Shown piece after piece: positions 41,730-64,000 of a DNA stretch of 64,000 bases. The notes below the pieces were generated by a model. That model was given only the letters and a program-made list of their open reading frames with translations. It was not told the origin of the DNA and made no database searches. Position numbers and translations under genes: made by a program. The DNA comes from Halomonas alkalisoli (lineage in GTDB: Bacteria; Pseudomonadota; Gammaproteobacteria; Pseudomonadales; Halomonadaceae), in assembly GCF_021412585.1 (NCBI RefSeq), contig NZ_JAKCMI010000037.1, forward strand, positions 62,001 through 126,000. The letters are read 5' to 3'. The number at the start of each line of letters is the position of its first letter. Position 1 is the first letter of the stretch.

Positions 41730-41795
41730 GTGAAGTCCTCCTGAAAAGTATGAACCAGCCATTATACAGAATTGCGCCGGGTCTTTTTAGCCGCA

Positions 41796-41838
41796 CCTGT
41801 CGCGAGACAGGCTTGCCTGGGGCGTCCGCCCCTACGAG
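41796..41838. repeat. REP-like palindromic element between leuB and asd
   Basis: Three short palindromes in a row: CCTGTCGCGAGACAGG (41797-41812 approximately), CAGGCTTGCCTG and GGGGCG-TC-CGCCCC (41819-41832). Located just past the leuB stop, it may stop leuB transcription or stabilise mRNA ends, as REP sequences do. Confidence 0.5.
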
Positions 41839-41867
41839 GATAGCGGGCATAGCCCCCGGCCTGCGTA

Positions 41868-42947
41868 TCAAATTGCGTCGAAGGCCCTCAGCACGGCGTC
41901 ACCCATTTCACTGGTGGAGACGGTACGCGTCCCCTCGGAGGCAATATCGGCGGTTCTCAGGCCGTCGTCCAGCACCTTGCCCACGGCCGCTTCGATACGC
42001 TCGGCCAGCGCAGGCTCGCCTAGGGAATAGCGCAGCAGCATCGCCACCGAGAGAATGGTGGCCAGCGGATTGGCCACGTTCTGGCCGGCGATGTCCGGCG
42101 CGCTGCCGTGGCAAGGTTCATACATGCCCTGGCCGCTCTCGTTGAGCGAAGCTGAGGGCAGCATGCCGATGGAGCCGGTCAGCATCGCCGCGGCATCCGA
42201 CAGGATATCACCGAACATGTTGCCGGTGACCATCACGTCAAACTGCTTGGGCGCGCGCACCAGCTGCATGGCCGCATTGTCCACGTACATGTGCGAGAGC
42301 TCGACATCGGGATACTCCGGCGCCAGGCGCTCCATGACCTCGCGCCACAGGATGGTAACCTCGAGCACATTGGCTTTGTCGACGCTACACAGGCGCTTGC
42401 CGCGCTTCTGTGCCATTTCGAAGGCGACCCGACCGATGCGCTCGATCTCGCTCTCGGAATAGATATAGGTATTGAAGCCGACCCGCTCGCCGTTGCGCAC
42501 CTCGATGCCACGCGGCTGGCCGAAGTAGATGCCGCCGGTGAGCTCGCGGACGATCATGATGTCAAGACCGGCCACCAGCTCGGGCTTGAGACTGGAGGCG
42601 GAGGCGAGCTGCGGATAGGTGATGGCCGGGCGCAGGTTACCGAACAGGCCGAGGTTCTTGCGCAGGCCGAGCAGGCCCTTCTCGGGGCGCTTGGTGAGAT
42701 CCTCGAGCTTGTCCCACTTGGGACCACCCACGGCACCGAGCAGGATGGCATCGGCGGCCTTGGCCTTGTCCAGGGTCACCGCGGGCAGCGGCTCGCCGTG
42801 TTCGTCGTAGGCGCTGCCACCGACCAGGCCTTCTTCCACCTCGACGTCGAGGCCGCGGGCCTGGCAGGCGGCCAGGATGCGGCTCGCCTGGGCAGTGATC
42901 TCGGGGCCGATGCCGTCGCCCGGCAGTACCAGAATCTTGCGTGTCAT
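41868..42947 (-). CDS. leuB: 3-isopropylmalate dehydrogenase
   Basis: NAD-dependent oxidative decarboxylation of 3-isopropylmalate in leucine synthesis; 359 residues. Motifs: GDGIGPEI at the N-terminus, the substrate Arg cluster [14 protein letters not shown], the Tyr/Lys pair in the ELTGGIYFG and KANVLE regions, and the metal Asp in [13 protein letters not shown]. It follows leuD after 237 bases that hold a hairpin repeat. Confidence 0.98.
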
Positions 42948-56763: not shown

Positions 56764-56792
56764 TTGCCCATGACAATGTCTCTGGCTATGTT
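56764..56792 (+). promoter_or_regulatory. Probable promoter of the lasso precursor gene
   Basis: TTGCCC (56764-56769) and TATGTT (56787-56792) with a 17-base spacer, about 50 bases before the precursor ATG, in a region less GC-rich than its surroundings. Confidence 0.5.
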
Positions 56793-56845
56793 GAAGGTGT
56801 CCCTCCCCCAAGTAACAGGAGGCAACCTGAGAGGAGAGCTACTTC

Positions 56846-57001
56846 ATGGATATGAGTAATGAACAGAAACGTGGTTGGGTCACCCCCGAGCTGACCCGTA
56901 TGAGCATCGACGAAACGCTTGGCGGCATCATGCCCAACCCATCTGAAGAGCACTCCGGCAACGAGAGTGCTGCGGGCGATCCCAACTTTGGGATGAGCTA
57001 A
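56846..57001 (+). CDS. Lasso peptide precursor (A)
   Basis: A 51-codon gene (ATG to TAA) with an AGGAGAG site 8 bases upstream. Residues 1-25 form a leader with Trp11, Pro14 and Leu16 (WVTPEL, the WxxPxL form of the YxxPxL recognition motif) and Thr24 at position -2 of the cleavage site. The predicted core (26-51) starts GGIMPNPSEEH and ends DPNFGMS: Gly1 and Glu9 can form a nine-residue macrolactam, and the last residue is Ser. Position 8 is Ser and no acid occurs at 7 or 8, so Glu9 is the only legal ring acceptor. By hand addition the cyclised core has a neutral monoisotopic mass of about 2570.04, plus 79.97 if phosphorylated. The call rests on the motif plus the adjacent B1, B2 and C genes. 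Confidence 0.9.
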   Translation: MDMSNEQKRGWVTPELTRMSIDETLGGIMPNPSEEHSGNESAAGDPNFGMS

Positions 57002-57079
57002 GCCCCGCTGTACTGCGCTGTAACCAGCTGCAATTAAAGGAAATCGCTCGGCGGTTCAAAAGCATACGCCGTGAAGTTC

Positions 57080-58945
57080 TCATTTCAGGGGTTCCTTTAC
57101 CCTTTTTCCTTCCGGATCGTGACCTTCGTCATTTGATTCCCGATAGTGGTGAGCCTGCTGGCTGAATAGTCTCCAGTAATGGCCTCGTTGGTGCATCAAT
57201 GCATCATGATCGCCCACCTCCCTGATCTTTCCATTCTCCAGGACATAGATGACATCCGCCATGCGCACAGTGGACAGCCGATGGCTGATGATCAATGCCG
57301 CTCGATGTTCGATTCGCTCACGAAAGTTTTCGAACAACGTGAACTCGGCACCCGGATCTAGCGCACTGGTTGGCTCATCGAGGACAATGATGCTGGAACG
57401 ACGCATGAAGGCACGCGCCAGGGCAACCTTCTGCCACTGGCCGATGCTCAACTCCTGGCCTTGATCGAATATACGCGTCAATGGCGTGTCGTAGCCTGCC
57501 GGCAGCGCCTCGATGAACGGGGCGGCACCCGAGAGCGAGGCCACTTGCTCGACACGTGGCGATCCTTCGGGCTCGTGGATATCCCCATAGCGAATGTTGT
57601 CGCGTGCCGTAGCGGCATAATGAGAGTAATCCTGGAAAATCACGCTGAACAAGCCGCGATAATCGTCCAGGCCATACTTCCGAATATCCTCGCCATCCAG
57701 GGTGATGCGGCCTCGAGTCGGGTCGTACAGCCGGCACAGGAGCTTGATCAGTGACGTCTTGCCAGAACCATTGGCTCCCACCAGGGCAACTACCTGGCCG
57801 GGACGTATGGCCAGGTTCACATCGTTCAGTACCTCACGCTCGCAGCCAGGATAGTGAAAGCTCACCCCTTCGAAGCGGACTCCCTCGTGCAGGGACTCGG
57901 GAAGCGGCTTGGGCGAGTCAGGGTCCAACAGCCCAGGTTCCAGATCGAGGAAATCAAACAGTAGCCCCAGATAGAGATGATCCTCATACAGCTTGGCCAG
58001 TTGTTGCACAAGCTCCTGGCCCATAGTCTGCACTCGCTGGAAGATGAGCAGGAACAGCACCAGGTCGCCGACGCTGTTATATCCCTCCGCCGTGCGCCAG
58101 GCCAGCAGGCCCATGGCACTGAAGAATGCCACGGTTGCCATTCCACCTACCAGCATCTCGATACGCGTTCTGCGGGTCGTAATGGCGAGTCGCTCGCGAC
58201 GCAGCTCTGTGCGAAGACGGCCATATTGCTGCCGCAGGAAATCCCCCAGTTGGTTGAGACGCAGTTCTTTGGCATTTATCTCGGATGTCATCAACCAGTC
58301 GAGATAACCCGAACGGCGCTCCATCTGAGTGCGCTTCTGCTGCCAGACAAACAGCTCATGATTGAAGCGAAGTCGCGCAACCAGCGCTGGCATAATGGCG
58401 ACCAGAAGCAAGGGCAGCAGCAAGGGACTAAGGGTTATGATCAACCCGCTGACGGCAGCAAGCATCAAGATGTTCTTGGTCAGCATCATCAGGTTGCCAA
58501 CCACCTGAACTGGCCGCTGGGTGCCCGCCGCACGGGCTCGCTCCAAGGTATCGTGATAGCGCGAGCTCTCATAGAAGGAGAGATCCACCCTTACCGCGGC
58601 AGTATGTATTTCTCGATCAATGTGTTCGGCTACGTACAGCCCATGGGCTTCCCTCGCCAGGGCAGACAAGGACCGAGCTATCAAGAACGCCAGGCTGACG
58701 ATCCCCGTCAACGCCACGTAGCCCAACACGATGCCTACCGATCCCTCCATTGCGTCTGGCCCCAGCCTCTGGGTGACCACATCGACCAACTGCTTCAGCA
58801 AGTAGAGCACGCCCAGGCCGAAGCCGACTTCAAGCAGCATCAAGCCGCTGCCCCACAAGGTCCAGCGGCGGCTACTAAGCCAAAGGATCGGCAGGATGCG
58901 GCGCAAGGACAGCAGCGGAGAAAACAGGCGAGTCAGCCGGATCAT
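57080..58945 (-). CDS. Lasso peptide ABC exporter (D)
   Basis: A 621-residue half-transporter: membrane domain with about six helices (residues 1-320) and an ATPase domain with Walker A GANGSGKT (390-397), signature LSIGQ (499-503) and Walker B IIVLDEPTSALD (519-530). No C39 peptidase domain precedes it, so leader removal must be done elsewhere (B2). In lasso clusters this type exports the mature peptide and gives self-immunity. It is convergent with the precursor gene, 78 bases away, and follows the nucleotidyltransferase gene by 22 bases. Confidence 0.92.
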   Translation of the reverse strand: MIRLTRLFSPLLSLRRILPILWLSSRRWTLWGSGLMLLEVGFGLGVLYLLKQLVDVVTQRLGPDAMEGSVGIVLGYVALTGIVSLAFLIARSLSALAREAHGLYVAEHIDREIHTAAVRVDLSFYESSRYHDTLERARAAGTQRPVQVVGNLMMLTKNILMLAAVSGLIITLSPLLLPLLLVAIMPALVARLRFNHELFVWQQKRTQMERRSGYLDWLMTSEINAKELRLNQLGDFLRQQYGRLRTELRRERLAITTRRTRIEMLVGGMATVAFFSAMGLLAWRTAEGYNSVGDLVLFLLIFQRVQTMGQELVQQLAKLYEDHLYLGLLFDFLDLEPGLLDPDSPKPLPESLHEGVRFEGVSFHYPGCEREVLNDVNLAIRPGQVVALVGANGSGKTSLIKLLCRLYDPTRGRITLDGEDIRKYGLDDYRGLFSVIFQDYSHYAATARDNIRYGDIHEPEGSPRVEQVASLSGAAPFIEALPAGYDTPLTRIFDQGQELSIGQWQKVALARAFMRRSSIIVLDEPTSALDPGAEFTLFENFRERIEHRAALIISHRLSTVRMADVIYVLENGKIREVGDHDALMHQRGHYWRLFSQQAHHYRESNDEGHDPEGKRVKEPLK

Positions 58946-58967
58946 GGGGACACGGCCCCCCTACGCC

Positions 58968-60206
58968 TCATTGCCGCGTCCGCCTAATAGTGAAGCGCGA
59001 ATATGCCTTCTGGAAGGGAGTGGTCAGATGATAGATCCACTGCCAACGCGACGGCAACGGGTGCAGTCGATAGTCGGCATAAGTGGGACGGAAGAACATC
59101 ACCACGTTATGCAAGCGACGACCGTGTAGCCTGTGCCGCAGGCCGGCCTGCCAGTTGTAGGCCAGATCGGGCGAGACCCGGGTCCTGCTAAGGGCGATCT
59201 CAGTATCACGCCCTCCCCGCAGCGCCAACAGGCAACTGTTGACCAGTTCGTACCCATTGGCGGATAGCTCATCCTGCCATGGCTCGGGCGATTCCACGGC
59301 ATGGTACAGCTCAAGGCAGGCTGCCAAGGTAGTGCTCAGCCCGCGCCGCTCGGCGCACTGCTCCACGGCAGCCAGATTGAAATCGGGGTGTCGTTGCAAC
59401 GCATCGAGGTCCACCAGCCAGTGGAGGTGCGACCAATGGTGACGAGTATGGTGCAGGCAGAGATAGACAAACAGTTCAGCGATCGGCATTACGGCAAGAT
59501 CCACACCATTAAGGCGGTACACGTCCGCCTCTTCGATAAGCTTCCGTGTGTCATAGAAGTTTCCCGATCTATCGATCTGGTGATGCACTTCCACCGGAAT
59601 TCCCAGCGGGCTGATGAGCGAGATGACTTGGTGGACCCGACAGGCGAAAGCCAGCGCGGCTCGATCACGGCTGAGCGCCTGTGGCATCCAGGAGACATAG
59701 CCTTCGGCCAGCATGGCATCGAGCAGTTCGACGACATGTGCAGCGGGTACCAGCAGATCGATATCCCGGCAGAAGCGCACCGCAGGGTCATCGTAATAGC
59801 GACCCGCGAGACTCGGTCCTTTGAAGAACAGGTGCGGGACACGGCTCGGATTCAAGAAATGCTCCACCAGCCGGCGCTGTTCGCCAGCAATTAGCAGATT
59901 GTGCTGAATCACGTCGAGACTCCCCCGCCGCATCACATCCCATTGCGCTTCAGCCACCTCTCCTTGCGTCGCAAGGGAGCGAAGGTGGCGATAGGCCAAT
60001 GGCAGGATGAAACGCCGCCGCGCTTCATCGGCCAGGAGTGACCAGTCCGGGATCCGTTCGATCAAAGCACGAGCTTCCCGAGCCTGATTCTCGGATAGCT
60101 CCAGGCGGGAGAGCAACAGTAACAGCTTGAGCTCCAACGGCAGTGACATATGGAGTTGGGATAGGGACATATAGCGTTCTTCTATGAGTGAGAATGACCC
60201 TGTCAT
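58968..60206 (-). CDS. Nucleotidyltransferase-family tailoring protein (N)
   Basis: A 412-residue protein with the nucleotidyltransferase signature KGPSLAGRYYDDPAVR and RDIDLLVP (Asp148 and Asp150) near 129-154. Such proteins recur in lasso clusters that also encode an HPr-like kinase; in the pseudomycoidin case a homologue was reported to extend the phosphorylated C-terminal Ser (from memory). A tailoring role here is inference. It is the first gene of a two-gene minus-strand unit with the exporter and is divergent from B2. Start taken as the ATG at 60206; an ATG at 60170 is an alternative. Confidence 0.8.
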   Translation of the reverse strand: MTGSFSLIEERYMSLSQLHMSLPLELKLLLLLSRLELSENQAREARALIERIPDWSLLADEARRRFILPLAYRHLRSLATQGEVAEAQWDVMRRGSLDVIQHNLLIAGEQRRLVEHFLNPSRVPHLFFKGPSLAGRYYDDPAVRFCRDIDLLVPAAHVVELLDAMLAEGYVSWMPQALSRDRAALAFACRVHQVISLISPLGIPVEVHHQIDRSGNFYDTRKLIEEADVYRLNGVDLAVMPIAELFVYLCLHHTRHHWSHLHWLVDLDALQRHPDFNLAAVEQCAERRGLSTTLAACLELYHAVESPEPWQDELSANGYELVNSCLLALRGGRDTEIALSRTRVSPDLAYNWQAGLRHRLHGRRLHNVVMFFRPTYADYRLHPLPSRWQWIYHLTTPFQKAYSRFTIRRTRQ

Positions 60207-60343
60207 CGAACCTGAGAGGCTGCCAGAACTCTACTAATGTAATTTCAAGTTAGCAGCGCTACCGAAAAGCAACCATATTGAATCAACTGCCAAGGCAAGG
60301 CTGCATACTGATGTGCAAGTCGCCGGATCGGAGGAACTTCGCC

Positions 60344-60817
60344 ATGCGCCAGTTTCGACGTCTCACGCCTGACCGCCGACACCTTGTACTGGAAGCCGCC
60401 ACGGGGCTCGCACTGGCCTGGCTGCTGGTACGGGGCTTTCCGTTCCGGTACTGGTGCTCATTGCTTGGGGAGCGTGCCGCCGGCGAAGTCGACCTCCACC
60501 CCCTTTACTCCGACCAACAGGCGACACGCGAGATCTGCTGGGCTGTCACGGCCGTGAACCGAGCCACGGGAGACCACTTTACCTGCCTGATGCTTGCGAT
60601 GGCAGCTCAGCGGATGCTGAGCCGCAGGGGCATATCGAGCAGCCTGGTGCTCGGCACCCTCACCGAGCGGGACGAGATCGGCAAGCTAGTCATCAAGGCC
60701 CACGCCTGGTTGCGAGTCGACGGCGAACTGGTGCTAGGTCATCATGATGGCCGCTTTGCTGCCCTCTCGAGTTATCTGCGCCGGTCTACCCCGAGCGTGC
60801 GAGGCAAGACGCCGTGA
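60344..60817 (+). CDS. Lasso peptide leader peptidase (B2)
   Basis: Transglutaminase-like cysteine protease that removes the leader. From the ATG at 60344 (GGAGGAAC site 6 bases upstream) it has 157 residues starting MRQFRRLTPDRRHLVLEA, the usual start of this family; the frame extends to a TTG at 60278 without support. The catalytic residues are Cys81 (FTCLMLAMAAQRML), His120 (KAHAWLRVDG) and an Asp, 126 or 135. It lacks a fused recognition domain, which is provided by the separate B1. It overlaps the C gene by four bases (GTGA). Confidence 0.93.
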   Translation: MRQFRRLTPDRRHLVLEAATGLALAWLLVRGFPFRYWCSLLGERAAGEVDLHPLYSDQQATREICWAVTAVNRATGDHFTCLMLAMAAQRMLSRRGISSSLVLGTLTERDEIGKLVIKAHAWLRVDGELVLGHHDGRFAALSSYLRRSTPSVRGKTP

Positions 60818-62724
60818 GCGCCATCGCAGGACGCCTTCATCTCTGCGGAACCCCCGTGTCGCCCGAAACCCTGGCCCATGCCTGCACCGCACTGGCCGAT
60901 TACGGACCGCAAGGGAGCGACATCTGGGTCGAAGGCCACCTCGGCCTGGGCTATCGACACCTTGTCGTAGCACCAGAGTCCCGCTACGAAGCCCAACCCC
61001 TGCGTCAAGGCTCGCTCGCGCTAGTGGCAGACGCCATCCTCCACAATCGCGACGAACTGTGCGAGATGTTGGACATTCCTGCGCATCAGCGACCTTACCT
61101 ACCAGACAGCCAGCTTCTGCTCGGCGCCTACCGCCGCTGGGGGACGGAGTGCGTCACTCGCTTGCATGGCGATTTCGCTTTCGCCCTCTGGGATGGGCAG
61201 GCCCAACGCCTTTTCGCCGCTCGCGACCCGGTGGGTGCACGCCCATTCTTCTACGCCCATCGAGGCCAATGCCTGTCGTTTGCCAGCAATGTCCGGGGCC
61301 TGCAGGCCCTGGCAGACGCACCCTTTCCGCTGGATGAGTCACGTGTCGCCAACTATCTCATCTGGCCACTCAACCCTGTGGAAGCGAGCTTCTTCAAGGG
61401 AATCAGCCCCTTGGCGCCAGGCTATAGTCTCATGGCCACTCCCGACGGCCTGAGTGTCCAACGCTGGTGGGATCCACGCAATGTGCCTGACGTGCGCTTT
61501 AATCGGCGGGAAGAGTACGTCGAGCAGTGTCGCGAACTGTTGGAACGCGCAGTAAATGATTGCCTGAGAACCGACCATCCTGTGGGCACGCACTTCAGCG
61601 GCGGCCTTGACTCCACCGGGGTGACGATACTGGCTAACCGCCTGCTCAGGAAGCAAGGCCGTAGCCTGGACATGAGCTACACCTGGGCACCGCCAATCAA
61701 TGCCCGCTACCCCTTGAGCGATAGCCAGTGGGATGAGCGGCGCACCATTCTTGAGGTGTGTCGCCGGGAAGATATCTCTTGTCACCATGGCATCGCCGAT
61801 GGCTCGGACTACGCGGCGTACTGTGCACGGGACCTGGCGGTGGAAGGCCACTGCGACCTGTTCGAGGAGCTCCCGGTCATGGCTGCTGCAGCCAGCCGCG
61901 GCACGCGAGTGATGCTATCCGGCTGGGGGGGAGACGAAGCGCTCACCTTCACGACACGCGGCGTGGCCGCCTTCCTGTTGCGAAGCGGGCGCTGGGCAAC
62001 TCTACTCGACATGGCACGGCGACAGGCCGGCGGGCTGCGCCGCTGGCGGCGGTGGAGCCGGTTTCTATGGCAAGAGGGGTGCCTGCCGTTCATGCCGGAC
62101 TCCGTCTACGCCCGCTTCTCTCCCTATCTGAATACCGAGCGGCTCCCCCAGGCGGCGAGGTCGTCCTTCCTGTCGCAATATTCCTCCGTCGAAGTCGGCC
62201 GCGGCGCCATTTGGCGGGTCTACGCCGATCCGCGACGTATCCAGCAAGCACTGCTCGACAATGGCCATCTGGCTGCACGCATGAGCGCCTGGTCGAACTG
62301 GGCGGCGCCGCACCGGCTGGTCTATCGCTACCCCCTGACAGACCGCCGGATCCTGGAATTCTCCCTGGGGCTTCCTCGCGAGCTGCTTTGGCAGGAGGGC
62401 ACCAGCCGCTGGGTCTATCGCCGGGCCATGCAGGACCTGCTGCCGGCTCGCCTTGGCAAGTACGACGAGGCCAACGAGCGCAAGCGCGTCGATCAGTTGG
62501 TGGAATGCCGCCAGCTACTGGCCAGGCAGGCCAGGCGGGGGGCCTTCCTTGCGCCTTGCCCGTGGCTCGACGTGAACTTGCTCCACGAGCGCCTGATGGC
62601 CCCGCCCGATAGCGACCCTGGCCGAGCCATACAGGAGTTCGTCCCACTGGAGGCGGCGCTGCGCACCTGGCACCTGTGGCAGCGCTACGGCGCGATGGAC
62701 AGCCAAGCTGCTGCCACCTACTGA
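60814..62724 (+). CDS. Lasso peptide macrolactam synthetase (C)
   Basis: Asparagine-synthetase-like enzyme that adenylates the Glu9 side chain so that the core's N-terminus can attack it. Start GTG at 60814, 636 residues. The C-terminal half has the ATP-pyrophosphatase loop SGGLDS (262-267) and later GWGGDEALTF. The N-terminal glutaminase-like half is present, but residue 2 is Ser rather than Cys, so it cannot use glutamine; this separates it from a housekeeping AsnB. Translationally coupled to B2 and followed by B1 after 40 bases. Confidence 0.94.
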   Translation: MSAIAGRLHLCGTPVSPETLAHACTALADYGPQGSDIWVEGHLGLGYRHLVVAPESRYEAQPLRQGSLALVADAILHNRDELCEMLDIPAHQRPYLPDSQLLLGAYRRWGTECVTRLHGDFAFALWDGQAQRLFAARDPVGARPFFYAHRGQCLSFASNVRGLQALADAPFPLDESRVANYLIWPLNPVEASFFKGISPLAPGYSLMATPDGLSVQRWWDPRNVPDVRFNRREEYVEQCRELLERAVNDCLRTDHPVGTHFSGGLDSTGVTILANRLLRKQGRSLDMSYTWAPPINARYPLSDSQWDERRTILEVCRREDISCHHGIADGSDYAAYCARDLAVEGHCDLFEELPVMAAAASRGTRVMLSGWGGDEALTFTTRGVAAFLLRSGRWATLLDMARRQAGGLRRWRRWSRFLWQEGCLPFMPDSVYARFSPYLNTERLPQAARSSFLSQYSSVEVGRGAIWRVYADPRRIQQALLDNGHLAARMSAWSNWAAPHRLVYRYPLTDRRILEFSLGLPRELLWQEGTSRWVYRRAMQDLLPARLGKYDEANERKRVDQLVECRQLLARQARRGAFLAPCPWLDVNLLHERLMAPPDSDPGRAIQEFVPLEAALRTWHLWQRYGAMDSQAAATY

Positions 62725-62764
62725 CATCGTCAGTAACCACCTTCAAAACAAAGGAGTAACCATC

Positions 62765-63037
62765 ATGAATGCCCAGTCTTGGATAGTGCGCAGCCAGGAG
62801 CCCCTCGCCTCTCGGATCGATGACGACCTGGTTCTCTTCAGCGCCCGCAACGGCATGTACTACGGCACCCAGAGTATTGGTCAGACAATCTGGGGGCTGC
62901 TCGAGTCGGAGATCCAGTTCAGCGAGCTCTGCGACCGCCTGCAGGCGTCCTATGAGGTTGACAGGAACACCTGCGAACGGGAAGTCGAGGCGTTTCTTCT
63001 CCAACTCGAACAGGAGGGTCTGATCAACGTTCGTTGA
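62765..63037 (+). CDS. Lasso peptide leader-recognition protein (B1, PqqD-like)
   Basis: A 90-residue PqqD-like RiPP recognition element that binds the precursor leader and presents it to B2. The fold is a winged helix with an N-terminal beta sheet (DDLVLFSARNGMYYGTQSIG) and a three-helix bundle. AAAGGAG ribosome binding site. It ends with LEQEGLINVR and its last 14 bases overlap the end of the convergent kinase gene. A free pqqD is excluded because no other pqq gene is present. Confidence 0.92.
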   Translation: MNAQSWIVRSQEPLASRIDDDLVLFSARNGMYYGTQSIGQTIWGLLESEIQFSELCDRLQASYEVDRNTCEREVEAFLLQLEQEGLINVR

Positions 63038-64000
63038 GTCCCGCCTCGTCAGGAGATGCAAATCGCGACGCTTCGATCTCCTGCATCAAGGGTGCCAGGC
63101 TCGCATCCATCCGCTCGAGTGACCAGGGTCGGCGGAAACGATAGACCTGAATCTGCGACGCCAACGCCGATACTGTCGCCAATAGGCGTGCCGGAGGATT
63201 GAACAACCGACCGAGTTCCGCACGGTAGAGCGCCCGCAGCAGTACGCGGAAAGCATCCACCCCTTTCAGGAGCGTCAGACTGGAAACCTCGCCGGGCTCG
63301 GCACGCTCCAGCTCAACCAGCACCTTGAGCGGCCCGGCTTCATCTCGGAAGCCGGCATGCGCATTGAGGTGATACTTGTCGGCGCGGGTCAGATCACGCA
63401 CCAGTCCACTCGTGTCGATTGCCATTGCCGCCAGGGCATCCTGCCATAGCTTGAGGCGAGGTGGCCCAGGATGCAGTATAGGTTCCGGCGCATCCGGCTC
63501 GATCACTGCAACGTCGTCACTGACCAGAGGCCAGCCATGTTGCTGGTGGAGCCAGGCCGCCAGGGTGGACTTACCCGCCCCGGAATCCCCGGTGAAGGCC
63601 CAGACCCCGGCCGGTGTATGCACGGCACTGACATGCAGCGGCAGGCACTGGCGCTGGTGCAACAGGATCCCCAGAGCGGCCCCGAGAAGATAGAGGCGTA
63701 CGTCACCCGACACGACCTGGTGCTCTGGTTCTCTTGGCACCCGCCGGTCGACCAGGATGCGCCGCCCCTGCTCGATGCGATAGCGCCCAATTCCCTGCAC
63801 TAGTATCTGGCAGCGCTCGCCATCCAGCTCCAGGCAGGGCCAGTCTTCCACCGCATCATCAAGCGGACCTAACTGGCCCGGGGTGAGAATCTCGATATCA
63901 GGTTCCGCGCAAGGCGGAGCCGGCGTCAGCTCCGGCAGTTCCAGCTCCGACACCAGGCTCAGACCGTAACTTCGATACTGGTATCTTGCGGTTCTACGGA
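63024..64000 (-). CDS. HPr-kinase-like lasso peptide kinase (K), 5' end beyond the window
   Basis: The visible C-terminal part (at least 325 residues) has the HPr kinase P-loop GDSGAGKST (about 63590-63564) and the preceding SAVHTPAGVWAFTG. A GTG at 63953 could be a start, but the frame continues open to the window edge and reads YQYRSYGLSLVSELELPEL, the typical N-terminus of this kinase family, so the true start lies outside. In paeninodin-type clusters the homologue phosphorylates the C-terminal Ser of the precursor; the precursor here ends in Ser. Tail-to-tail with B1. Confidence 0.9.
   Translation of the reverse strand, partial: RRTARYQYRSYGLSLVSELELPELTPAPPCAEPDIEILTPGQLGPLDDAVEDWPCLELDGERCQILVQGIGRYRIEQGRRILVDRRVPREPEHQVVSGDVRLYLLGAALGILLHQRQCLPLHVSAVHTPAGVWAFTGDSGAGKSTLAAWLHQQHGWPLVSDDVAVIEPDAPEPILHPGPPRLKLWQDALAAMAIDTSGLVRDLTRADKYHLNAHAGFRDEAGPLKVLVELERAEPGEVSSLTLLKGVDAFRVLLRALYRAELGRLFNPPARLLATVSALASQIQVYRFRRPWSLERMDASLAPLMQEIEASRFASPDEAGLNER

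Follow-up and report, generated by a model that had tools for sequence, protein, structure and literature searches.

A probable lasso peptide gene cluster with kinase and nucleotidyltransferase genes in Halomonas alkalisoli and related Halomonadaceae

The 64,000-nucleotide stretch of Halomonas alkalisoli contig NZ_JAKCMI010000037.1 analyzed here (the window) ends in seven adjacent genes, and the question raised by this locus is whether they amount to a full paeninodin/pseudomycoidin-type cluster for a lasso peptide and what such a cluster would produce. We consider it highly probable that they do, from genes, motifs, conservation, insertion boundaries and a predicted fold of one enzyme that were all observed here. 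The cluster extends from 56846 to 64115 in window numbering, with the order A (+), D and N (−), B2, C and B1 (+), and K (−). An earlier inspection of the letters (the sequence-only reading) had placed the same seven genes here, and both the reading frames and the profile searches agreed; the split B1/B2 with kinase and nucleotidyltransferase that it described was likewise found, by the B2, B1 and N profiles and the HKDD residues of K. Its description of the cluster as complete within 7.2 kb was right for the presence of all seven genes, K being whole on the contig (L004 7024–8115), but the K frame overshoots the window by approximately 115 bases.

The precursor gene A (56846–57001, + strand, 51 aa) was recognized from its sequence and by a precursor pattern. 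Its leader (..W11VTP14EL16TRMSIDET24L) is followed by the core GGIMPNPSEEHSGNESAAGDPNFGMS, Gly26 to Ser51, with Thr24 at position −2 of the leader, ring residue Glu34 (core Glu9) and Ser51 as last residue. Lasso rings are closed by an Asp or Glu at position 7–9. Thr at −2 of the leader is a rule of lasso precursors according to PMC10368454. The pattern (WxxPx[LM]-7-T-x/X1...Glu9, where the slash marks the end of the leader and the last residue was left free) matched 22 among 5,676 short open reading frames (ORFs) in 21 loci; 19 loci of 19 genomes were matched, among the 20 that bear the cluster. The sequence-only reading had made its case depend on a conserved precursor in orthologous loci, and one was kept; because the pattern recurs in 19 of 20 cluster-bearing genomes, the window precursor is not a chance ORF. 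The 20th genome (G245) showed only Y/Gly-type precursor candidates (leader types are defined below), which end in Ser. All 22 halomonad precursors, with 21 distinct cores, have Thr at −2 of the leader, Glu at core position 9 and Ser at the end; core residue 1 is mostly Ser (16), otherwise Gly (3), Thr (2) or Gln (1). Compared to the precursor of Halomonas sp. DQ26W (L026/L046), window A showed two changes in the leader and eight in the core; a leader that is kept while the core varies is the usual picture of a precursor of a ribosomally synthesized and post-translationally modified peptide (RiPP). Core position 11 is often bulky (His in the window), and its residue might be a plug.

The most likely product is probably a 26-residue Gly1–Glu9 lasso on whose C-terminal Ser K would place a phosphate and N a further modification. 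The mass of 2570.0 given in the sequence-only reading was reproduced, since the 26-residue core with one macrolactam has a computed monoisotopic mass of 2570.04 Da; the computed [M+H]+ values are 2571.05 for the unmodified lasso, 2651.02 with phosphate, and 2813.07 or 2975.12 with phosphate plus one or two hexoses.

Both enzymes expected to form the lasso were present. B2 (60278 with a TTG start or 60344 with ATG, to 60817, + strand) is a transglutaminase-like leader peptidase (PF13471) that scored 63 bits against the lasso profile NF033537, with a cut-off of 33, and thus did not fall into a non-RiPP family, a result that would have counted heavily against the sequence-only reading. The Cys in its FTCLMLA motif and the His in KAHAWL are kept across the aligned relatives. 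C (60814–62724, + strand) is an asparagine-synthetase-like macrolactam synthetase with Asn_synthase (PF00733) and GATase domains above cut-off and a retained SGGLDS motif, and its best NCBIfam match is a lasso cyclase. Profile searches of the window genome gave a single match each for C, K and lasso B2, and among 14 control genomes the lasso B2 profile matched in one. A plasmid search with C gave 14 records, each with less than 60% identity.

B1 (62765–63037, + strand) is a PqqD-like RiPP recognition element (RRE; PF05402, E = 3e-15) that aligned without gaps to PbaB1 (PDB 9x90_B, E = 1.4e-12), of which the pocket residues I44, I48, L65, Y69, V71 and F83 are retained. The leader register of window A (W−15, P−12, L−10) is that of PbaA, a Bacillota paeninodin-like precursor, and the W/P/L spacing is common to the 22 halomonad precursors, with Met at −10 in L039. 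Popov et al. (2026; PMC13381572) report that paeninodin-like precursors of Bacillota, unlike those of other phyla, typically carry WxxP leaders and that RRE positions 42 and 79 help to decide between W and Y leaders, being Gly/Gln in PbaB1 and Asn/Asp in LppB. Window B1 has Gln/Glu at these positions, its own residues 36 and 73, and thus lacks the Gly42 and Gln79 of PbaB1. Glu79 was found in 16 of the 19 B1 proteins of the main halomonad set, each time with Gln, Pro, Arg or Lys at position 42, and Gly42 in none of the 19; the other three (L039, L041, and L042) have Asp79 with Ser or Asn at 42. Among the 28 RREs of Gly-type (mostly Tyr) loci, 27 have Asp79, and position 42 is occupied across the 28 by Asn (14), Asp (11), Ser (2) or Gln (1). 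The main Halomonas set has thus given up the Asp that binds Tyr, and the residue that replaces it is not the one seen in Bacillota. Against a simple residue rule, 12 of 23 other W-leader RREs retain Asp79. The proposal that Gly42 and Gln79 explain W selection everywhere did not hold outside Bacillota, as only the Priestia and Paenibacillus references have both residues.

K is encoded on the − strand from 63024 past the window end at 64000 to contig position 126115. The gene was called K because of its HKDD residues and its identity (29% over 299 aligned positions) to the K encoded in a Priestia cluster that carries a paeninodin-family annotation, not because of a profile score. The residues of the HKDD motif, which is described for lasso kinases in PMC9266682, are intact: His in LPLH, the P-loop Lys in GDSGAGKST, and Asp-Asp in SDD. 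On the Priestia plasmid itself (L124 11333–12268), the HprK-like kinase of this cluster is annotated as 'aldolase'. A second K copy lies beside K in Halomonas gemina and H. ventosae (L036 2799–3863 and L038 2895–3932), in which the P-loop Lys is gone (GAPGAGTST, GVPGAGIST) and SDD is replaced by TDE, and these residues suggest a pseudokinase that both species have retained.

N (58968–60206, − strand, 412 aa) belongs to NTP_transf_5 (PF14907, E = 3.5e-39). In an alignment of the window protein with 26 of 27 length-filtered relatives (L072 was dropped), K129, G130, D148, D150, H208, and D266, which include a DxD motif, were invariant in all 27 sequences. The AlphaFold2 model had a mean predicted local distance difference test score (pLDDT) of 91; a model built without an alignment had a pLDDT of 35 and was not used for structure search. 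Residues 104–303 of the model matched MenT1 (8an4_A; Z 13.8, root-mean-square deviation (rmsd) 2.8, 175 aligned), similar stretches matched ANT(2'')-Ia (Z 12.2) and LnuA (Z 12.0), and a weaker match was to FKRP (6kal_B; Z 9.1, rmsd 3.8, 146 aligned). No glycosyltransferase-fold entry was conspicuous among the 50 PDB matches listed, which excludes nothing. By its predicted fold, N is a nucleotidyltransferase, and the group that it would transfer is taken from the published knock-out of psmN in pseudomycoidin, as described in reviews. D (57080–58945, − strand, 621 aa), a fusion of permease and ATPase, is an ABC exporter (Pfam ABC_tran, 2.5e-31) whose NCBIfam matches are of MsbA type and all under their cut-offs.

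The order of steps, the phosphorylation, the transfer by N and the export would follow characterized relatives. B1 would grip the WxxPxL motif of the leader, and K would phosphorylate Ser51 on the linear precursor ahead of B2 and C, an order that comes from work on paeninodin as recounted in PMC9266682. B2 would then cleave between L25 and G26, after T24–L25, and C would activate Glu34 (core Glu9) and join it to Gly26, giving a nine-residue ring in which the tail is trapped. N may add a further group to the phosphorylated Ser (a hexose in one studied case), and D would export the product. As to the role of the product, action against competitors is the usual guess.

The limits of the cluster were found by comparison with genomes in which its site is empty. 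A DUF488 gene lies upstream of A and sthA on the other side, with approximately 7.5 kb between them in the window genome. DUF488 and sthA are separated by 34–117 bp between aligned ends in five of 30 fetched DUF488 loci (G038, G042, G052, G057, and G115), none of which has a cyclase match, and by 12 bp in G113, which carries the cluster at another site. In five further loci (L134, L139, L140, L142, and L152) DUF488 was near nqrF with no intervening sthA match, and at the other loci sthA was not seen within the 1.5 kb flanks. Because the seven genes fill this insertion, with 148 bp as the biggest intergenic gap, the cluster is one cassette and no additional gene arrived at the DUF488/sthA site. 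There is thus no room for an isopeptidase gene between DUF488 and sthA, a statement made from the spacing of this site, without an isopeptidase profile or a search of the rest of the genome. PADLOC made no call for N, C or K.

When 275 genomes of the family were searched with the cyclase (E ≤ 1e-60), it was found in 20, of which 14 belong to the genus of the window. The nearest cluster-bearing relative, Halomonas sp. DQ26W (G085), has a C with 88% identity, which agrees with the Halomonas-type genome named in the sequence-only reading. K and N were detected in all 20, although K is on a different contig from C in G091 and G245, and in G131 is approximately 733 kb from C, inside a second lasso locus. 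This second locus (L182; G131 C1:528500–548400) contains a tandem array of four Y-leader precursors, each with Ser as its last residue, together with K, N, D and two cyclases. B2 was detected in 19 of the 20, in a diverged form (33–38 bits) in G080, G268, G114, and G245; the contig of G087 ends inside C. The window and its two nearest relatives (L026 and L027) have A first and K last; ten genomes (G001, G002, G067, G072, G075, G022, G055, G113, G087, and G088) have B2, C, A and B1 facing D, N and K, as far as their contigs reach (those of G088 break inside C). In two genomes, composite clusters were found (L039 in G080 and L042 in G114), in which cyclase, kinase and B1 are each present twice and precursors of both the W and the Y type occur, but B2, D and N only once each on the DNA fetched.

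Six of the 14 same-genus genomes (G000, G085, G062, G066, G080, and G091) carry the cluster at or near DUF488/sthA; in G062 it is beside sthA only, with DUF488 22 kb off, and in G080 it lies 10.5 kb beyond DUF488. In five others (G055, G067, G072, G075, and G113) it occupies the gap between asd and leuB, which corresponds to window positions 41762–41868 and lies 15 kb from the DUF488/sthA site in window terms. For G087, G088, and G114 the insertion site was not placed. That the cluster entered a single short conserved stretch at two points suggests either repeated acquisition there or a short move. A genome without the W-type cyclase (G074; L158/L171 on C12), a close relative by its DUF488 (98%), has only a second cyclase type 8–15 kb beyond DUF488, together with D, N, B2 and B1.

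Several results weigh against a lasso cluster of the paeninodin/pseudomycoidin kind. No product of the cluster was seen. Scores of several proteins stayed below curated cut-offs: B1 reached 76 bits against NF033536 (cut-off 80), C 325 bits (E = 1.2e-96) against the lasso 'exception'-type model NF033535 (cut-off 525), and K passed no cut-off at all, with 30 bits against TIGR04352 (cut-off 200) and E = 0.025 for Hpr_kinase_C. Window A and L030 did not match the curated paeninodin family NF033524, to which L032 scored 12 bits (cut-off 27) and the Priestia precursor 58. Identities to the Bacillota counterparts are low (34% for B2, 24% for N, 26% for C and, as given above, 29% for K with Priestia), and PbaB1 pocket positions 41, 75 and 79 are changed in window B1. 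The ring size depends on the rule of Thr at −2; with Thr at −3, an eight-residue ring would start at Gly27, for a computed [M+H]+ of 2514.03, and 20 of the 22 cores have Gly at the second core position. In G131, no K was found within the 19.5 kb fetched around the W-leader cluster. A linear phosphorylated peptide (LPP)-like RiPP instead of a lasso would account for K, RRE, N and D, which also occur in LPP clusters according to PMC13381572, but it would leave unexplained a lasso-type cyclase and a B2 above the lasso cut-off; moreover, the filled insertion leaves no space for the signal peptidase of LPP clusters, the window leader has W where LPP leaders have Y, and Glu9 is invariant, so that we regard this as very improbable.

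A decaying or silent island, horizontally acquired and functionless in this strain, would fit the patchy spread, the two insertion sites, the GC content of A, D, N and B1 (0.55–0.59, compared to a 1-kb mean of 0.637, sd 0.027) and a promoter and terminator scan of the cluster at chance level (one sigma-70 site against a mean of 1.6 in shuffles); we nevertheless find it unlikely, as all seven frames are open, the catalytic residues examined are retained, and the precursor has a conserved leader with a variable core. A better case can be made for a lasso to which N adds a nucleoside monophosphate or a phospho-sugar in the manner of FKRP, in which case the finished product would carry something other than a phosphate-linked hexose. 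The model of N resembles nucleotidyltransferases and, at a lower level, FKRP, of which structure entries are titled with CMP and CDP-ribitol, and nucleotidylation by PsmN is not excluded according to the review PMC9266682. On the other hand, the same review relates knock-outs of pseudomycoidin that tie PsmN to hexoses, and a shared fold shows no function; we hold this alternative with rather less than even confidence.

The lasso cluster favored here shares parts with several known systems. Pseudomycoidin of Bacillus pseudomycoides has a kinase and a nucleotidyltransferase gene (psmK/psmN) by its lasso genes and a C-terminal Ser as site (PMC9266682, PMC8498205); it belongs to another phylum, and the gene order in Halomonas is A, then D and N on the − strand, then B2, C and B1, then K on the − strand. 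With the paeninodin family (Paenibacillus, PadeK; NF033524), the cluster shares a WxxP leader in the register of PbaA, a C-terminal Ser and an HprK-like kinase, features also seen in the Priestia and Paenibacillus references (L124 and L125), but the Halomonas precursor is outside NF033524, window C is 26% identical to the Priestia cyclase, and the C clade is separate. By the rule of Thr at −2, the ring residue is Glu9 in Halomonas, Asp9 in L124 and L125, and Glu8 in a third reference, L126. A kinase-bearing proteobacterial lasso cluster has already been published, that of Sphingobium (PMC9266682, PMC8498205); in Sphingobium yanoikuyae, SyanK acts on the C-terminal Ser of SyanA (PMC9266682). 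The Halomonas clade differs in carrying N and stands apart from the alphaproteobacterial W-leader cyclases in the cyclase tree described below, in a comparison that does not include the Sphingobium locus. Unlike isopeptidase-type proteobacterial lasso clusters, the Halomonas insertion has no room for the corresponding gene. Named Halomonas records (L046–L052 and L069) contain orthologous clusters, the C of Halomonas sp. DQ26W being 88% and that of H. heilongjiangensis 60% identical; their cores differ, and in L048–L051 and L069 A lies between C and B1, facing D, N and K. The sequence-only reading took the product to be undescribed, in line with which no described Halomonas lasso peptide was found in the open-access literature, although this is weak evidence of absence.

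If made, the product would be a lasso peptide of a gammaproteobacterial halophile that bears a phosphate and a further decoration; the whole unit that encodes it is defined by an empty insertion site. The 22 natural precursors, with 21 distinct cores and matching enzymes, are material for studying the role of the C-terminal phosphate and of the group added by N, and the halomonad RRE residues make it possible to check directly, outside Bacillota, the W/Y leader-selection model that was published for that phylum. The cluster type itself is known; the RRE observations and those on the wider class are the part that a specialist would expect less.

In a wider set, the best 80 of 207 relatives were studied (78 loci, 8 of them Halomonas); the 70 non-halomonad loci were thus selected by closeness to the Halomonas cyclase and do not sample lasso loci in general. 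Calls of K and N relied on halomonad-derived profiles (E ≤ 1e-3, the weakest K at 21 bits) and covered the DNA fetched for each locus. Of the 70 loci, 57 had K, 28 had N and 27 had both, leaving one locus with N and no K in view; K was present in 27 of 28 loci with N compared to 30 of 42 without (Fisher p = 0.011, relatedness ignored). The sole Bacillota name that we recognized among the 70 record titles was Lihuaxuella (L120), which had neither. The statement in the sequence-only reading that the layout is best known from Firmicutes is thus true of the literature but not of this distribution.

Leader types (W, and Gly with the motif [YW]xxPxLxxxG) were defined post hoc from the sequences themselves, and no precursor was found in 20 of the 70 loci. 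A Ser end was present in 21 of 22 non-halomonad W-type precursors, including three Bacillota references, compared to 5 of 31 Gly-type ones, among them the halomonad second-system precursors (L039 and L042) and L127 (Fisher p = 4e-9, relatedness ignored). These counts leave out L058 and L071 (W type, Ser-ended, found via a last-residue filter), L067 (a copy of L066), a second L083 precursor with a Lys end, and the Ser-ended Gly-type candidates of L044, L182, and L184. The idea that a W leader alone marks the Ser-ended class was rejected, as 6 of the 31 Gly-type leaders start with W and none of these precursors ends in Ser. Conversely, the four Y/Gly-type precursors of L182 beside a close K end in Ser, as do the candidates of L044 and L184 (both G245). 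The Ser end is therefore not set by leader type alone. Among L053–L123, HprK-like K is common in Gly-type loci although their cores seldom end in Ser, and K may for this reason have another target or another role there.

A cyclase tree (quick search, LG+G4, midpoint root, with three Bacillota references, L124–L126, of which L126 is on a long branch) placed 19 Halomonas sequences in one clade, with L044 (G245) apart. The leader types were largely on the two sides of one branch (starred), with L062 and L044 (a Gly-type candidate) as exceptions; K is frequent on either side. The Bacillota references grouped with alphaproteobacterial W-leader cyclases, away from Halomonas, and a simple import from Firmicutes was thus not supported. 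Taken together, a tentative picture, which we think may be right but would not yet favor as a whole, is that lasso clusters with WxxP leader, Ser end and kinase would form one old class across phyla and no invention of Bacillota; that the RRE of the main Halomonas clade would have a selectivity of its own, with Glu for the Tyr-binding Asp and Gln, Pro, Arg or Lys at the second determinant; that N, with its nucleotidyltransferase fold, would transfer phospho-sugars; and that the W- and Y-type systems of L039 and L042 would share B2, exporter and N. Metagenome bins assigned to Euryarchaeota (L066 and L067) also contain lasso-like loci, in which K, B1, B2 and two cyclases occur together with fragments of N.

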